Shown: positions 13,906 to 18,497 of the stretch, one piece after another
Numbering within the stretch: position 1 is the stretch's first letter
Layout: every line of letters begins with the position of its first letter
DNA from: Maribacter spongiicola
Lineage (GTDB): Bacteria; Bacteroidota; Bacteroidia; Flavobacteriales; Flavobacteriaceae
Assembly: GCF_004364165.1 (NCBI RefSeq)
Contig: NZ_SOAY01000011.1
Location: forward strand, 682,001-746,000
DNA length: 64,000 nucleotides
Direction of reading: 5' to 3'
Made by a program: the position numbers and the translations under genes
The notes under the pieces: generated by a model
Told to the model about the DNA's origin: nothing
The model's input: only the letters and a program-made list of their open reading frames with translations
Databases searched by the model: none

Positions 13906-14394
13906 ATGCAAAAAGAAGCAGTCTTTACTGATTTAATACGAGCGCATCAGGCGCTATTATATAAGGTGACTTCAATTTACACCGATAATAAAGAGGATCA
14001 AGAAGATTTGTTTCAAGAAATTGTCTACCAACTATGGAAGTATTTTGACTCGTTTCGTAACGATTCAAAAATAACAACTTGGATGTATCGTGTAGCGATG
14101 AATACAGCAATCACATTTATCAAGAAAAAAAAGAGAAGACCAGATTCCGTTCCCATTGCAGATATTTTTATCAAGCAATCAGATACTAATAATGATACTT
14201 ATGAAGAGCGATTGCGATTGCTATATCAGCATCTAAAACATCTAAATACCTTAGAAAAAGGACTCATTTTTCTTTTACTTGAGGGTAAAAGCTATAAAGA
14301 GATAGCACAAATTACAGGACTAAACGATAGTAATGTAGGCACTAGAATATCTCGAATTAAGAAAAAATTAAAAACTAACATGACAAAGCATTAA
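13906..14394 (+). CDS. ECF-type RNA polymerase sigma factor
   Basis: A 162-residue sigma-70 family protein with region 2 (about 10-75; DLFQEIVYQLWKYFDSF and WMYRVAMN) and region 4 (about 105-155; the helix-turn-helix around EGKSYKEIAQITGLN). There are no regions 1 or 3, which defines the ECF group. The downstream gene starts 2 bp after the stop and encodes a membrane protein that is probably its partner or anti-sigma. The stimulus and the regulon are not evident. Confidence 0.9.
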   Translation: MQKEAVFTDLIRAHQALLYKVTSIYTDNKEDQEDLFQEIVYQLWKYFDSFRNDSKITTWMYRVAMNTAITFIKKKKRRPDSVPIADIFIKQSDTNNDTYEERLRLLYQHLKHLNTLEKGLIFLLLEGKSYKEIAQITGLNDSNVGTRISRIKKKLKTNMTKH

Positions 14395-14396
14395 TC

Positions 14397-14996
14397 ATGG
14401 AACTAGAAGAACTACAGTCTGCATGGACACAAATGAGCGATGAACTCAATCATCAAAAAAAATTGACGAACCAAATAATATTAGATATGACAAAGCAGAA
14501 ATATCAAAATAAATTCTCAACCATTACCAAATACGAAACCTTAGGTGCCTTAGTTTGTTTTGCTATAGCATTATTTGTGCTGCTAAACTTTGGTAAATTA
14601 GATACCTGGTATTTACAGATTTGCGGAGTACTTACCCTTTCTTTTCTAATTGTGTTACCTGCAATGGTGCTTATAACTTTAAAAAGAATAAAAAATATAG
14701 ATATTTTAAAAGGGACTTATAAAGAAAATTTAAAGTTTTACTTGAAGACAAAGAATAGACTTTTAAGATTGCAACAAATTGGTATAGCAGTTGGTTTTAT
14801 TGGACTATTATTTATAGTTCCGGTAACATCTAAAATTATCTCGAACAAGAATGTATTTTTAACCAACTTAAAAACAGAACAATACGTAGTATTTGCTTTA
14901 ACATTAATAGTAATGGTGTTTTTCTGTAGATGGGCATATAAAGGATACCTTAAAGTAACACAATCTGCCCAAGAGTTGATACAAGAATTAGAGTAA
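14397..14996 (+). CDS. Four-helix membrane protein, probable anti-sigma/partner of the ECF sigma factor
   Basis: A 199-residue protein with a cytoplasmic N-terminal helix of about 45 residues (MELEELQSAWTQMSDEL) followed by four transmembrane segments near 47-65, 73-93, 125-143 and 160-178. The opening helix is typical of short proteins that follow ECF sigma genes in flavobacteria. It carries no recognised zinc anti-sigma motif. The 2-bp spacing and order are the main evidence for an anti-sigma role; this is inference. Confidence 0.65.
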   Translation: MELEELQSAWTQMSDELNHQKKLTNQIILDMTKQKYQNKFSTITKYETLGALVCFAIALFVLLNFGKLDTWYLQICGVLTLSFLIVLPAMVLITLKRIKNIDILKGTYKENLKFYLKTKNRLLRLQQIGIAVGFIGLLFIVPVTSKIISNKNVFLTNLKTEQYVVFALTLIVMVFFCRWAYKGYLKVTQSAQELIQELE

Positions 14997-15001
14997 ATTC
15001 T

Positions 15002-15631
15002 CTATTCAGTAAGTTTCTTTTGAACGTAATTTAAAATTAACATCCAATTCATTTTTAATAGGAGGGAAGCTGTCGGCACATTGTCATCGGCAATTGCTGA
15101 AATAATAGAATCATGTTGATTATCAGATTTATTGTAGAAAGAATCATCATTTGTAAAAGCACGTTCATAAAAAAAGATGCGTGTCTTTAAGTCATGAAGA
15201 ATTTTAAGCGCCAATTTGTTTTTATAACCTTGGGTCAATAATCTATGAAATTCTAAATCAGCCTGAATTCTATCGATAGCATTTGTTGCATTTTCAAAAA
15301 CCTCTTGTTGATTTTTTAAATTAACGATATCTTCTTGACTAAACTCCGTATTTTCAATAGCCATCACCTCTAAGTTCGCTACTAGTTCATACAATTCTTC
15401 TGCCTCTTCAACATCAAGTTCAGCTATTATGAATCCTCTATTGGGTATCGCCTTAATAATATGTGCTTGTTGCAACTGTGTTAACGCCTCTCGTATTGGA
15501 GTTACGCTAACATTCAAATGACGTGCAAGTGCAGCTAAGTTGATGGTTTTACCTGTTTTCAAATTTCCCGTAATCATCTCTGACAACAAGTAATCGCGCA
15601 CTTGATCTCTTAAATTTATTTTAACCAGCAT
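15002..15631 (-). CDS. GntR-family transcriptional regulator, FCD subfamily
   Basis: A 209-residue regulator. Residues 5-70 form the winged helix-turn-helix (NLAALARHLNVSVTPIREAL is the recognition region) and residues about 80-205 the all-helical FCD effector domain. FCD regulators usually respond to carboxylic acids or sugar acids. The start ATG lies only 5 nt after a perfect -7 element, and a 12-bp palindrome of the type bound by this subfamily lies in the promoter spacer, which suggests autoregulation. No metabolic operon adjoins it, so the effector is unknown. Confidence 0.9.
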   Translation of the reverse strand: MLVKINLRDQVRDYLLSEMITGNLKTGKTINLAALARHLNVSVTPIREALTQLQQAHIIKAIPNRGFIIAELDVEEAEELYELVANLEVMAIENTEFSQEDIVNLKNQQEVFENATNAIDRIQADLEFHRLLTQGYKNKLALKILHDLKTRIFFYERAFTNDDSFYNKSDNQHDSIISAIADDNVPTASLLLKMNWMLILNYVQKKLTE

Positions 15632-15635
15632 ACTT

Positions 15636-15643
15636 CAAATATA
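15636..15643 (-). promoter_or_regulatory. -7 element of gntR-type gene; near-leaderless start
   Basis: TATATTTG on the minus strand matches TAnnTTTG; a TTTG that could serve as -33 lies at 15669-15666, 22 nt upstream (slightly long). The start codon begins 5 nt after the element, so the mRNA would have practically no 5' leader. Confidence 0.6.
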
Positions 15644-15647
15644 ATAT

Positions 15648-15659
15648 ATCGTATACGAT
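15648..15659. promoter_or_regulatory. Perfect palindrome ATCGTATACGAT, likely GntR operator
   Basis: A 12-bp perfect palindrome lies between the -33 and -7 elements of the GntR gene. The core GTATAC with flanking pyrimidine/purine resembles operators of FCD-type GntR proteins (GT...AC symmetry). Binding here would block RNA polymerase. Confidence 0.6.
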
Positions 15660-15712
15660 TATAACCAAATTACAGCGTATTTAGTGCCTTAATTATCTAC
15701 AAAATATGCATG

Positions 15713-15745
15713 TAAAAAAGATATGAATGATGAATTCATATCTCT
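15713..15745 (-). terminator. Rho-independent terminator closing the micropeptide array
   Basis: AGATATGAAT and ATTCATATCT form a perfect 10-bp stem with a 5-nt loop. On the minus strand it is followed by six T. It lies 8 bp beyond the stop of the last small ORF and well before gntR, so the array is its own transcription unit. Confidence 0.85.
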
Positions 15746-15753
15746 TATACTAT

Positions 15754-15867
15754 TTAGTATGCTAAATGTCTTTCAATAGATAATAGCTTTCTCTGCTTGT
15801 CTTTTATAGCATTTAATAACTTATACTTGGCAGAAGTTATAGGTAATATTTTTTGAAAATTTTTCAT
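15754..15867 (-). CDS. 37-residue Lys-rich micropeptide (diverged fifth unit of the array)
   Basis: ATG to TAA encodes 37 residues beginning MKNFQKILPITSAKYKLL and ending SIERHLAY. It has the same length as the four identical upstream ORFs, and its start codon falls exactly 175 bp from the next start. M1, F4, P9, K22, R26 and R33 are shared with them; the rest has diverged. It is strongly basic, has no Cys and no signal peptide. It is the last ORF before the terminator. I recognise no family. It may be the ancestral copy or a partner of the repeated peptide. Confidence 0.6.
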   Translation of the reverse strand: MKNFQKILPITSAKYKLLNAIKDKQRKLLSIERHLAY

Positions 15868-15928
15868 GATGTTCGTTTTTAGGTTCGATGATTAGCCGAG
15901 TGATTGATGAATGTTTGTTGTAATAAAC

Positions 15929-16042
15929 TTAATGGGTATGATTTCTTGATGATGCCCATTGTACTCTTTTACTATTCTTAAAACTTGAAAAGAATGAATT
16001 TCTTCTTGTTTCTGTCGGTGTGTTTCTGATAAAAGTTCTCAT
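15929..16042 (-). CDS. 37-residue cationic micropeptide, array copy 1 (leftmost)
   Basis: Encodes MRTFIRNTPTETRRNSFFSS followed by FKNSKRVQWASSRNHTH (37 residues; six Arg, two Lys, one Glu, two His; no Cys). Relative to the other copies it has AAT instead of AAC for Asn23 and ACC for Thr36, both silent. The leader is A-rich (ends AAAAACGAACATC before ATG) with no Shine-Dalgarno site, as is normal for the group. There is no signal peptide or membrane segment. Function unknown; nucleic-acid binding, a peptide modulator or an antimicrobial peptide are possible. Confidence 0.75.
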   Translation of the reverse strand: MRTFIRNTPTETRRNSFFSSFKNSKRVQWASSRNHTH

Positions 16043-16103
16043 GATGTTTGTTTTTAGGTTCGGTGATTAGCCGAGTGATTGATGAATGTTTGTTGTAATT
16101 ATT

Positions 16104-16217
16104 TTAATGAGTATGATTTCTCGATGATGCCCATTGTACTCTTTTACTGTTCTTAAAACTTGAAAAGAATGAATTTCTTCTTGTTTCTGTCGGTGTGTTT
16201 CTGATAAAAGTTCTCAT
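16104..16217 (-). CDS. 37-residue cationic micropeptide, array copy 2
   Basis: The product is identical in all 37 residues to copies 1, 3 and 4. The only private change is TCG for Ser32 (TCA elsewhere), which is silent; Thr36 is ACT. It starts exactly 175 bp from each neighbour. The leader ends AAAAACAAACATT before ATG. Confidence 0.75.
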   Translation of the reverse strand: MRTFIRNTPTETRRNSFFSSFKNSKRVQWASSRNHTH

Positions 16218-16278
16218 AATGTTTGTTTTTAGGTTCGGTGATTAGCCGAGTGATTGATGAATAATTATTGTAACTATT

Positions 16279-16392
16279 TTAATGAGTATGATTTCTTGAT
16301 GATGCCCATTGTACTCTTTTACTGTTCTTAAAACTTGAAAAGAATGAATTTCTTCTTGTTTCTGTCGGTGTGTTTCTGATGAAAGTTCTCAT
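16279..16392 (-). CDS. 37-residue cationic micropeptide, array copy 3
   Basis: The product is identical to the other copies. Its private change is TTC for Phe4 (TTT elsewhere), again silent; Thr36 is ACT. Its downstream spacer is the most changed of the array, while the ORF stays intact. Confidence 0.75.
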   Translation of the reverse strand: MRTFIRNTPTETRRNSFFSSFKNSKRVQWASSRNHTH

Positions 16393-16453
16393 AATGTTTG
16401 TTTTTATTTTCGGTGATTAGCCGAGTGATTGATGAATGTTTGTTGTAATTAAT

Positions 16454-16567
16454 TTAATGCGTATGATTTCTTGATGATGCCCATTGTACTCTTTTACTGT
16501 TCTTAAAACTTGAAAAGAATGAATTTCTTCTTGTTTCTGTCGGTGTGTTTCTGATAAAAGTTCTCAT
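16454..16567 (-). CDS. 37-residue cationic micropeptide, array copy 4 (first in transcription order)
   Basis: The product is identical to the other copies, with the private silent codon ACG for Thr36. The ATG codon can be extended upstream in frame to a Met at 16651, but the extension is not shared with the other copies and is probably not translated. The leader keeps AAAAACAAACGTC before ATG although the rest of the upstream sequence is unrelated to the spacers. I saw no clear -33/-7 promoter upstream. Confidence 0.75.
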   Translation of the reverse strand: MRTFIRNTPTETRRNSFFSSFKNSKRVQWASSRNHTH

Positions 16568-16915
16568 GACGTTTGTTTTTAAATTGCTGATTAATAATTT
16601 TCTTATACTTACAAGACGAGGGTATTTGAAATTTGTTACAGTACTATGCATAAAAAGGTACTATTTTTAACAAAATTCATTCTACATAATACTCTAACTA
16701 TATGTTTTTTAGCTTATTAAGCACTATTAGAATTATTCCATTTTAACAATAATTCTACTAATAGAATAAAAATTAAAACGATTAGAGTATAAGAGGAGCG
16801 TGTAAATTCTAGAATTATGGTATGTAATAAGATATAAATCTGAGTTATAAATTATCTCTATTAAAAGATTAATAGAATGAGTCATTATAATGCTAAATAA
16901 TTGAAATACAAATCA

Positions 16916-16923
16916 TATCTTTG
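16916..16923 (+). promoter_or_regulatory. -7 element upstream of the cold-shock-domain gene
   Basis: TATCTTTG matches TAnnTTTG exactly; a TTG lies 12 nt upstream, closer than the usual 19, so the -33 is unclear. It predicts a 5' leader of roughly 145 nt before the ATG at 17076, long enough for temperature-dependent structure as in other cold-shock mRNAs. Confidence 0.45.
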
Positions 16924-17075
16924 TAGAACTTTAAAGGGATGCAGATGATTCTTGCAATGACCTTACAACAAATAGGATAATTAGTTTTACTCAAAAAACT
17001 TACCATTTGTTTTACATGTCACCACGTATTTCAATTCCTTTACTGCAAAATCTATTATTATCATTAAAATTACGA

Positions 17076-17534
17076 ATGGCAAAATCGCAACAAACATTTA
17101 ATAAAACTGAAAAAGAAAAAAAACGCTTAAAAAAGCGTGAAGAAAAGAAGAAAAAAATGCTTGCTCGTAAAGCAGCTGCAAAAGAAAGTGGTACTTCTGG
17201 TATTCCACTTGCTTATGTAGATTTCAACGGAAACTTGGTAGATACTCCGCCAGATCCGGCAATGAAAGTCGAAATTGAGGCAGAAGATATCGTTTTAGGT
17301 ATTCCAAAGAAAGAAGAAGGTGATGTGGAAGAATTCGATCCAGTAAGAAACGGTAAAGTTTCTTTCTTCGATACTACAAAAGGATTTGGTTTCATTATAG
17401 ACGCTGAGAACAACGAAAAGTACTTCGTTCACGTTAGTGGCCTTATCGATGAGATTATGGAAAACGATAAAGTATCTTACGAGTTAGAAAAAGGCATGAA
17501 AGGTATGAACGCCGTTCGTGTAAAGAAAATTTAG
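17076..17534 (+). CDS. Cold-shock-domain protein with Lys-rich N-terminal extension
   Basis: A 152-residue protein. Residues about 1-50 are highly basic (a run of KEKKRLKKREEKKKK type), residues 55-85 are acidic, and residues 86-152 form a cold-shock domain with RNP-1 TKGFGFI and RNP-2 KYFVHVS. The domain binds single-stranded RNA or DNA; the basic tail should add nonspecific RNA affinity. The start at 17076 (MAKSQQTF) is preferred over the upstream ATG at 17007, whose 23 extra residues are unlike the family. The stop lies 15 bp before the EamA gene. Confidence 0.9.
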   Translation: MAKSQQTFNKTEKEKKRLKKREEKKKKMLARKAAAKESGTSGIPLAYVDFNGNLVDTPPDPAMKVEIEAEDIVLGIPKKEEGDVEEFDPVRNGKVSFFDTTKGFGFIIDAENNEKYFVHVSGLIDEIMENDKVSYELEKGMKGMNAVRVKKI

Positions 17535-17549
17535 TTTTAAAGATTTTTA

Positions 17550-18497
17550 ATGGCGAAAATGCAACGTAACACCATTCTGGTAGTATTGTCATTTTTCGCC
17601 ATTTATTTCATATGGGGATCTACCTATTTATGGAATAAAATAGCAGTAACCGAATTGCCTGCCTTTATGTTGGCGGGCATTCGTTTTGTTATTGCTGGTA
17701 GTCTAATTTTTGTTATCTCAAAAGTATTAGGCTTTTCTCTGAAAATTACAAAGCTACAATTCAAGAATACCTTTCTTGCAGGCTTTCTATTTCTAACTTT
17801 TGGAAATGGAGTAGTAGTATGGGCTCTTAAGTTTGTAGATAGTGGCTTTGCGGCTCTAGAGGTATCTGCCCAGCCGCTAGTGGTTTTATTAATGATGCGT
17901 GTATTTCAAGGCAAAAAAATTCAACCAATGTCAATTGTAGGTGTAATTCTTGGTGTCGCAGGTATTAATCTTTTAGTGGGTCAGAAAGAAATAATTGCAC
18001 AAGACGGAGCGATTTTAGGAATGGTCCTAATTTTTCTTTGTATGCTGAGCTGGTCTTATGGCAGTTTGTTTGTCGGTAGTGCCGAGTTACCCAAAAATTT
18101 CTTTGTAAATACGGGATACCAAATGCTTACCAGTGGATTTTCACTTTTAATCATAAGCTTAGTTTTAGGTGAACAATGGTCTTCTCCGGTTACATGGAGC
18201 ACCCCTGTTCTTTGGTCTATGTCGTTGTTGATTATTTTTGGTAGCATCGTAACCTTTACCGCCTTCAATTACTTACTACGCATTGTATCGCCAGAAAAAG
18301 TAGCTACTTCTTCATATGTAAACCCGATTATTGCGATGATTCTGGGTTGGTATTTTTTAAATGAAGATATCACCATTCAATCAGCCATTGCATCTGTTGT
18401 GCTACTAACCGGTGTTTACTTTATTAATACCAAAAAGAGTTTGACTATTTTCTCTAGATTTTCAGGAAAACGGATTCCTAAAGCGCCGGCAGAGTAA
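17550..18497 (+). CDS. EamA-family (DMT) transporter
   Basis: A 315-residue inner-membrane protein with ten predicted transmembrane helices in two EamA repeats (about 10-140 and 155-290). The first repeat has the usual FFAIYFIWGSTYLWNKIA and AGIRFVIAG. The family exports amino acids, nucleotides or drugs; the substrate cannot be told. It starts 15 bp after the cold-shock-domain gene and may be co-transcribed. Its last 20 bp overlap the converging pseudouridine synthase gene. Confidence 0.9.
   Translation: MAKMQRNTILVVLSFFAIYFIWGSTYLWNKIAVTELPAFMLAGIRFVIAGSLIFVISKVLGFSLKITKLQFKNTFLAGFLFLTFGNGVVVWALKFVDSGFAALEVSAQPLVVLLMMRVFQGKKIQPMSIVGVILGVAGINLLVGQKEIIAQDGAILGMVLIFLCMLSWSYGSLFVGSAELPKNFFVNTGYQMLTSGFSLLIISLVLGEQWSSPVTWSTPVLWSMSLLIIFGSIVTFTAFNYLLRIVSPEKVATSSYVNPIIAMILGWYFLNEDITIQSAIASVVLLTGVYFINTKKSLTIFSRFSGKRIPKAPAE

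Follow-up and report, generated by a model that had tools for sequence, protein, structure and literature searches.

Tandem genes for 37-residue cationic microproteins behind a predicted ECF-type composite promoter in Maribacter and other Flavobacteriaceae

An operon that carries several very short and similar cistrons is known from Staphylococcus aureus, the phenol-soluble modulin alpha operon, and small basic ribosome-associated proteins are known in Sra/bS22 and bTHX, which, to our knowledge, do not occur as tandem arrays. Here, we describe an array of 37-codon genes on a 64,000-nucleotide stretch of Maribacter spongiicola DNA (the whole of which we call the window) that can be set beside each of these systems. 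The array peptides are like Sra/bS22 and bTHX in size and charge, but they have no Pfam, NCBIfam, or PDB-sequence match. Compared by description only, they also differ from the phenol-soluble modulin alpha peptides, which are amphipathic and secreted, in being hydrophilic and without an export segment. For the promoter, a counterpart is found in F. psychrophilum, where, in the sections of the source consulted, a -10 region with a CGT box is attributed to ECF sigma factors and where the SM6 promoters, whose targets include an ECF/anti-sigma pair, are strongly induced under low-nutrient conditions (PMC9723704). The likeness is one of the -10 box; the array promoter has two further elements beyond an SM6-type promoter, and those sections describe no peptide array (PMC9723704). 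Rhodanese and ABC-transporter genes are among the SM6 targets and, by eye, among the genes at sites of the promoter pattern described below, and the SM6 list also holds an unexplained putative small RNA, Rfp11 (PMC9723704).

The array consists of four exact 175-bp units on the minus strand, with start codons at 16567, 16392, 16217, and 16042, and Tandem Repeats Finder, run on the window, returned it as 15856-16581 with 4.1 copies and 94% matches. Each unit holds a 37-codon ORF (copy 1, 16454-16567, MRTFIRNTPTETRRNSFFSSFKNSKRVQWASSRNHTH; copy 2, 16279-16392; copy 3, 16104-16217; copy 4, 15929-16042), and all four translate to one identical 37-aa peptide. A sequence-only reading of this DNA had described the period, the strand, and the single product correctly, and its claim that the copies differ only by silent changes held as well: ORF positions 12, 69, 96, and 108 vary (codons 4, 23, 32, and 36), all of them third positions. 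With 22 synonymous sites among 111, the chance of four silent changes out of four is ~0.0015 when transition bias is ignored. The 61-bp spacers (spacer 1 at 16393-16453, with an A-rich translation start region; spacers 2 to 4 at 16218-16278, 16043-16103, and 15868-15928) are, as had been stated, more variable, with changes at 12 of 61 positions versus 4 of 114 ORF positions (Fisher P = 0.0007), and the copies stand in the rotating frames that had been noted because 175 is not a multiple of 3. Elsewhere in the window, a perfect 7-bp tandem repeat, AGGCTAA, runs for 8.6 copies at 2067-2126.

While the four copies of that reading stood, it had overlooked a fifth copy at the end of the series, as well as the promoter and the existence of a larger family. 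The terminal member (15754-15867, minus strand, MKNFQKILPITSAKYKLLNAIKDKQRKLLSIERHLAY) is a divergent 37-codon ORF with the spacing and leader of copies 1 to 4, and it has counterparts after the last copy in four other loci (L088, L089, L090, and L094). Among these five terminal members, 9 of 10 pairs gave a usable dS, and dN was below dS in all nine, with values of 0.070 versus 0.101 in the closest pair. The series is closed by a terminator-like hairpin followed by a T-run on the minus strand (15714-15746, AAGAGATATGAATTCATCATTCATATCTTTTTT): The predicted fold of positions 15700-15756 has an energy of -15.2 kcal/mol (z = -4.85), a stability that was reached by none of 200 shuffles. A consensus terminator scan, which requires at least three G-C pairs, did not report this hairpin.

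The homologue search that had been proposed with the first reading returned relatives in 35 of 36 Maribacter genomes and in 30 of 249 Flavobacteriaceae genomes (single-sequence searches), the one exception in the genus being a genome that is 68% complete. We collected 199 members at 78 loci, namely, 76 of 80 loci from named records, a second array of the same genome, and the window; L096, L104, L106, and L109 were left out of the locus counts for want of a complete family ORF. Exactly 37 codons are present in 172 of the 199 members, and two or more copies at 61 of the 78 loci, with a copy number that varies and that is uncertain in some cases since a few arrays are cut off by the end of a contig or contain N (e.g., L019, L010, and L026). 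Named records place relatives in Maribacter, Saonia, Eudoraea, Muriicola, Robiginitalea, Ulvibacterium, Lutibacter, and others. In an alignment of 64 chosen members, M1, R26, W29, and R33 are invariant and T10, F18, S19, S24, and K25 nearly so. We reject chance or an assembly artefact as the origin of the array, as arrays turn up again in 35 of the 36 genomes of the genus and at 78 loci that include named and metagenome-assembled (MAG) assemblies.

Beyond the family, a profile of the 37-aa class matched 6 of 296 genomes in an order-level sample, five of them Flavobacteriaceae and the sixth, from a different family, with a weak match of 20 residues (E = 5.7e-4). In a phylum-level sample, it matched 4 of 395 genomes, all Flavobacteriaceae; the often sampled genus g127 contributed no genome to the matches. 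A phage or plasmid origin was likewise rejected, there being no phage, viral-contig, or above-chance plasmid relative: Phages gave no match for the 37-aa or 28-aa peptides (the latter class is introduced below), plasmids gave none for the 28-aa peptide and one chance-level Streptomyces match for the 37-aa peptide (E = 5), and none of 21 pattern matches of the 37-aa class in viral contigs was confirmed. Nor did the neighboring genes (cold-shock protein, GntR/FCD regulator, and EF-G-like protein) provide a general rule across the 78 loci that would tie the peptides to them functionally. Some of these neighbors are shared by many loci, but as collinear blocks of the kind that synteny would produce, and there are arrays with other surroundings. 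The second array of the M. spongiicola genome (L007, 5529-5910; C1:1124594-1124906) has two divergent members and no ECF-type promoter within 450 bp; 27 bases after it lies a gene for a secreted-looking protein with, by eye, ankyrin-like repeats. At four further loci (L139, L141, L146, and L155), a single 37-aa-type gene without an ECF-type promoter stands upstream of genes that cluster with a LytS-like histidine kinase, with a small secreted-looking protein in between in L141, L146, and L155; regulation at these four loci may differ from that at the others.

The family made it possible to weigh the earlier claim that the peptide is translated and under purifying selection. Comparison supports this claim through pN/pS, the scarcity of stops, and the start context, while the silent-only differences within the array, on which the claim had drawn, are in part the mark of recent duplication or homogenization. 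In Maribacter, the nearest relative of a copy lies in the same array for 24 of 47 copies (4 more tied), and the arrays are thus partly homogenized or freshly duplicated; in Eudoraea, where arrays hold three distinct members in a fixed order, this is the case for only 2 of 24 copies. The proposed dN/dS comparison, run as pN/pS over 172 distinct ORFs of the family, gave 0.108 and 0.123 for the two bins of most similar sequences (29 and 48 pairs, respectively); in the bins of greater distance, where saturation increases, the values were 0.33-0.48. Stops within homologues, which the first reading had named as evidence that would count against translation, occurred in only 3 of 129 genus matches of a six-frame search that reads through stops, and none was seen inside the family-level matches listed for the 249 genomes. 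Frame +0 is open in all 172 ORFs, by construction because the sequences were gathered as ORFs; of the remaining frames, the two forward ones are open in 1 and 4 ORFs and the three minus ones in 28, 37, and 4.

Start sites are conserved in the same way. Of 198 family ORFs, 95-97% have A at each of positions -13, -12, and -11, and 98% have a purine at -3; measurements in F. johnsoniae show that A at -3 promotes initiation (PMC6847099). Codon choice added a weak signal: The one copy tested resembled the ribosomal-protein region (plus-strand ORFs of <300 aa there) more closely than background recoding did (P = 0.03), the terminal ORF was not significant in the same test (P = 0.10), and the signal of single copies 1 to 4 was weak (83rd to 90th percentile of background pieces). 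Coding, purifying selection, and separate start sites are thereby supported at the level of sequence comparison.

These data also bear on the reading that the array is a functional small RNA of several units in which the ORFs are incidental. The units are short and conserved, and a small spacer hairpin (TCGGctaatcACCGA) was more stable than shuffles in two of three spacers folded, both of which would suit an RNA. Change is nevertheless concentrated at third codon positions (diversity of 0.16, 0.12, and 0.34 at positions 1, 2, and 3 in 57 close members), and the fixed 37-codon length, the rarity of stops, and the conserved start context all speak against incidental ORFs. An Rfam search of 14500-17600 gave four matches, all to eukaryotic families and far below gathering scores (E = 0.7-3.1). 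We therefore regard this reading as extremely improbable.

Aligning the upstream regions of 14 Maribacter loci and 10 Eudoraea-type and related loci exposed a conserved block, which in the window reads, on the minus strand, as an upstream element A (16663-16673, TTGTTAAAAAT), the counterpart of TGTTAAA direct repeats in relatives; an element B, TAGTAC-N11-TAGTAC (16641-16663), which abuts the -35; an ECF-type -35, TGTAACA (16634-16640); and, 15 bases after it, an ECF-type -10, CGTCT (16614-16618). The -35 and -10 together (TGTAACA-N15-CGTCT, equivalent to TGTAAC-N16-CGTC) occupy 16614-16640, ~47 bases before the first start codon, and we infer a transcription start near 16607. Copy 1 can also be read as an extended 65-aa ORF from an ATG at 16651; because this ATG lies upstream of that transcription start, the array probably makes the 37-aa form.

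At 62 of the 78 loci, the 450 bp that precede the first ORF contain the core pattern, TGTAACA-N12..18-CGTC, whereas a search of all 2,142,352 strand-bases of these loci yields it just 63 times. Among the 16 loci that lack the strict pattern, four have near variants by eye (one changed base in L135; TGTTAC in L125, L142, and L147), two have too short an upstream region to judge (L089 and L097), and ten look different by eye (L007, L107, L127, L139, L141, L143, L146, L149, L151, and L155). Element B, in the general form TAC-N12/13-GTAC abutting the -35, is present in all 63 array promoters of the 37-aa class that we collected and in 24 of 27 of the 28-aa class. GTTAA occurs within 52 nt upstream of the -35 in 56 of 63 and 27 of 27 of these promoters, respectively, and in 9 of 25 non-array sites, while a direct TGTTAAA pair ~11 bases apart is found in 24 of 27 28-aa arrays and only 12 of 63 37-aa arrays. 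The TGTTAAA repeats suggest an OmpR-type activator, as judged from the form of such sites, and we also considered the possibility that they form a Pho box. In the parts consulted, a paper on Flavobacterium phosphate starvation does not use the term Pho box (PMC8115612), and a Zobellia expression paper holds nothing relevant to these repeats (PMC5613140).

GTAC-N9..15-AGTACTGTNAC occurs once in the M. spongiicola genome, and the composite GTAC-N10..13-RGTACTGTAAC gave 54 matches (46 of the N12 form) in 44 of 249 family genomes versus 9 for the reversed control. In the phylum sample, its 5 matches in 4 of 390 genomes equaled the reversed control (5); four of them are array-like and one is chance-like.

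We then come to the sigma factor. In the M. spongiicola genome, TGTAACA-N12..17-CGTCT has five sites, all N15, versus three for the reversed control. One precedes the array, at the same fixed spacing; another precedes an ECF sigma gene (L170/L173), followed by a 145-aa gene without family assignment and a DUF4252 gene; the others precede a DUF4870 gene and a 111-aa secreted-looking protein, with one site having no assigned gene. In L175 (4347-5384, C1), two adjacent genes encode small secreted-looking proteins of 111 aa, the second with an ECF-type promoter. The ECF sigma factor passes NCBIfam NF058625 (GFO_1088-family) with 241.5 bits versus a cut-off of 130, a family that models the sigma factor, not the peptides. 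In the genomes of seven relatives, the N15 pattern gave 28 sites versus 1 for the control; arrays stand at such sites in six of the seven (7 sites), a 111-aa type protein in three, and a similar ECF gene, by eye, in four, all of the 37-aa class. The sigma gene was not among the exact-pattern sites in any of the three 28-aa-class genomes tested (G203, G205, and G095; the G205 array promoter reads CGTCA at its -10), and hence the sigma assignment is supported for 37-aa-class genomes only. A different ECF sigma gene (13906-14394) and a gene for a 199-aa partner adjoin the array within the window (13906-14996), as they do in many Maribacter loci. Regulation by this adjoining ECF gene is disfavored, as it is an array neighbor mainly in Maribacter and scores 70.6 bits with NF058625, below the cut-off of 130.

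The promoter class common to the array and the sigma gene, in this genome and in four of seven relatives, would also suit peptides that act as feedback regulators of the sigma system, binding the ECF sigma factor, its anti-sigma factor, or core polymerase rather than the ribosome; small, basic peptides that a low-confidence structure model predicts to be mostly unstructured might do so. Element B, however, is found in eight genomes at 8 of 8 array sites but at none of the 25 other sites of this ECF type, and the arrays are therefore not simply co-regulated with the sigma gene. Moreover, a long distance separates the sigma gene (C2:1008753) and the array (C2:698614) in this genome, and the upstream region looks different at the ten loci named above. 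We consider feedback on the sigma system unlikely.

A second class of peptides came into view through the same promoter. In nine loci from genomes without a 37-aa match (L177, L179, L180, L184, L187, L194, L197, L203, and L204), the composite promoter precedes 28-aa ORFs such as MRTLDSNQLTERVSTSKAYAWNNKRRYR. Exceptions are L188, where the 33-aa product of the ORF that follows is, by eye, related to the 37-aa type, and L200, from a genome with a 37-aa match (G060), where nothing small follows; in L190 (G255:C191), it precedes a 162-aa secreted-looking protein, and micro-ORFs are absent. A profile search across the family Flavobacteriaceae found the 28-aa class in 93 of 249 genomes, and 80 of these remain with a cut of E = 1e-5. 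One or the other class occurs in 119 of 249 genomes at E = 0.01, with both in 4; the stricter cut for the 28-aa class lowers the total to 108 of 249. Among 30 loci chosen for the best 28-aa matches, the promoter pattern is present in 27, two or three copies in 16, and a following ORF of 43-45 codons in 25; where the pattern is missing (L253, L256, and L263), the promoter differs from it, by eye, in one base. The 28-aa tandem class thus shares the composite promoter. In sequence, the match between the two classes is short and weak (14 aligned C-terminal residues, probability 15%, E = 0.0018), and we link them because promoter and layout are shared. Between promoter and array, 17 of 21 37-aa loci with a leader of at least 100 bases have an ORF with a GW motif, mostly GxGW (L118, L120-L123, L129, L131, L133, L134, L138, L140, L145, L148, L152, L156, L158, and L164); one such leader member (METLYPHQ...) has a net charge of 0.

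The statement of the first reading that it knew of no described family for the peptide was borne out in Pfam, NCBIfam, PHROGs, Rfam, and the literature searched. When 37-aa and 28-aa peptides were submitted to Pfam, NCBIfam, and PHROGs, no match appeared up to E = 1; Pfam and NCBIfam also gave none for the terminal ORF of the window or the GxGW leader ORF, and PDB sequence searches gave chance-level matches only; one 44-aa terminal ORF had as its sole match a PHROG of unknown function (E = 0.041). No description of the peptides or arrays came up in searches of open-access papers, and the array family is apparently undescribed in the sources searched. The window peptide carries a SKRVxWxxxR motif and a net charge of +7 (range of +4 to +9 and median of +7 across the 199 members), and it has no hydrophobic 11-residue window, the highest Kyte-Doolittle mean being -0.51. 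Its structure model is poor (mean pLDDT 66.9, pTM 0.32), with short helices only.

These properties count against two further readings. Tandem copies occur in some precursor arrays, and a cationic, short, multicopy peptide of variable copy number might be an exported antimicrobial, a signaling peptide, or a RiPP precursor. But the window peptide has no hydrophobic segment for export, conservation runs through the middle and the C-terminal half with no obvious split into leader and core, no modification or export enzyme was recognized in the 21 neighbor clusters viewed by eye after clustering the 78 loci, and the promoter is ECF-type, all of which makes this reading improbable. Near-identical micro-ORFs in tandem are also what a type I toxin array, with each toxin held by an antisense RNA, would look like. 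The Ldr and Ibs families of type I toxins are hydrophobic membrane peptides with an antisense RNA, whereas the window peptide is hydrophilic and strongly charged; a sigma-70 consensus scan, which does not model Bacteroidetes promoters, found no plus-strand site in the array, and carriage by 35 of 36 genus genomes resembles that of a core function. We judge a toxin array to be very improbable.

The account that we consider reasonably probable is that the array is a stress-regulon operon of soluble, cationic microproteins, controlled by an ECF sigma factor together with a second regulator, whose peptide tunes an RNA or RNA-protein machine. The operon, found so far in Flavobacteriaceae, would be polycistronic and switched on by an ECF sigma factor, most likely the GFO_1088-family factor whose own gene shares the promoter class, acting jointly with a second regulator that would read the TGTTAAA and GTAC elements. 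A single mRNA of ~0.9 kb would be transcribed from the array, each cistron would be translated separately from its own A-rich start region, and each mRNA would yield several molecules of the 37-aa peptide plus the terminal variant. The peptide would fold on its partner and most likely bind a structured RNA or an RNA-protein machine (ribosome or RNA polymerase), which it would tune under stress. An RNA-rich partner would fit the fixed length, the Arg/Lys conservation, and the invariant Trp; that it is of ribosome or polymerase type is our guess. Within this account, the conserved composite promoter, the start context, and the -35/-10 class shared with the sigma gene are supported by sequence comparison, while we infer which sigma factor acts, that a second regulator takes part, that a higher dose is of benefit, and what the stress and the target are.

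More tentatively, it is possible that Flavobacteriaceae share a microprotein response in which the composite promoter drives 28- or 37-aa arrays, with a terminal peptide and, in some lineages, a GW leader, and which acts under stress on central machinery, for example the ribosome or RNA polymerase, with copy number setting the dose. If true, this would be a previously unseen kind of bacterial stress effector, missed by genome annotation because of its small size. Close to half of the sampled genomes of Flavobacteriaceae, which are of great ecological importance in soils and in the sea, would then carry an operon whose products are missing from the family libraries searched. If the reading is right, the conserved promoter would be a ready reporter for an ECF pathway in flavobacteria, and the array would be a simple system in which to ask why four identical tiny genes are kept in one operon.
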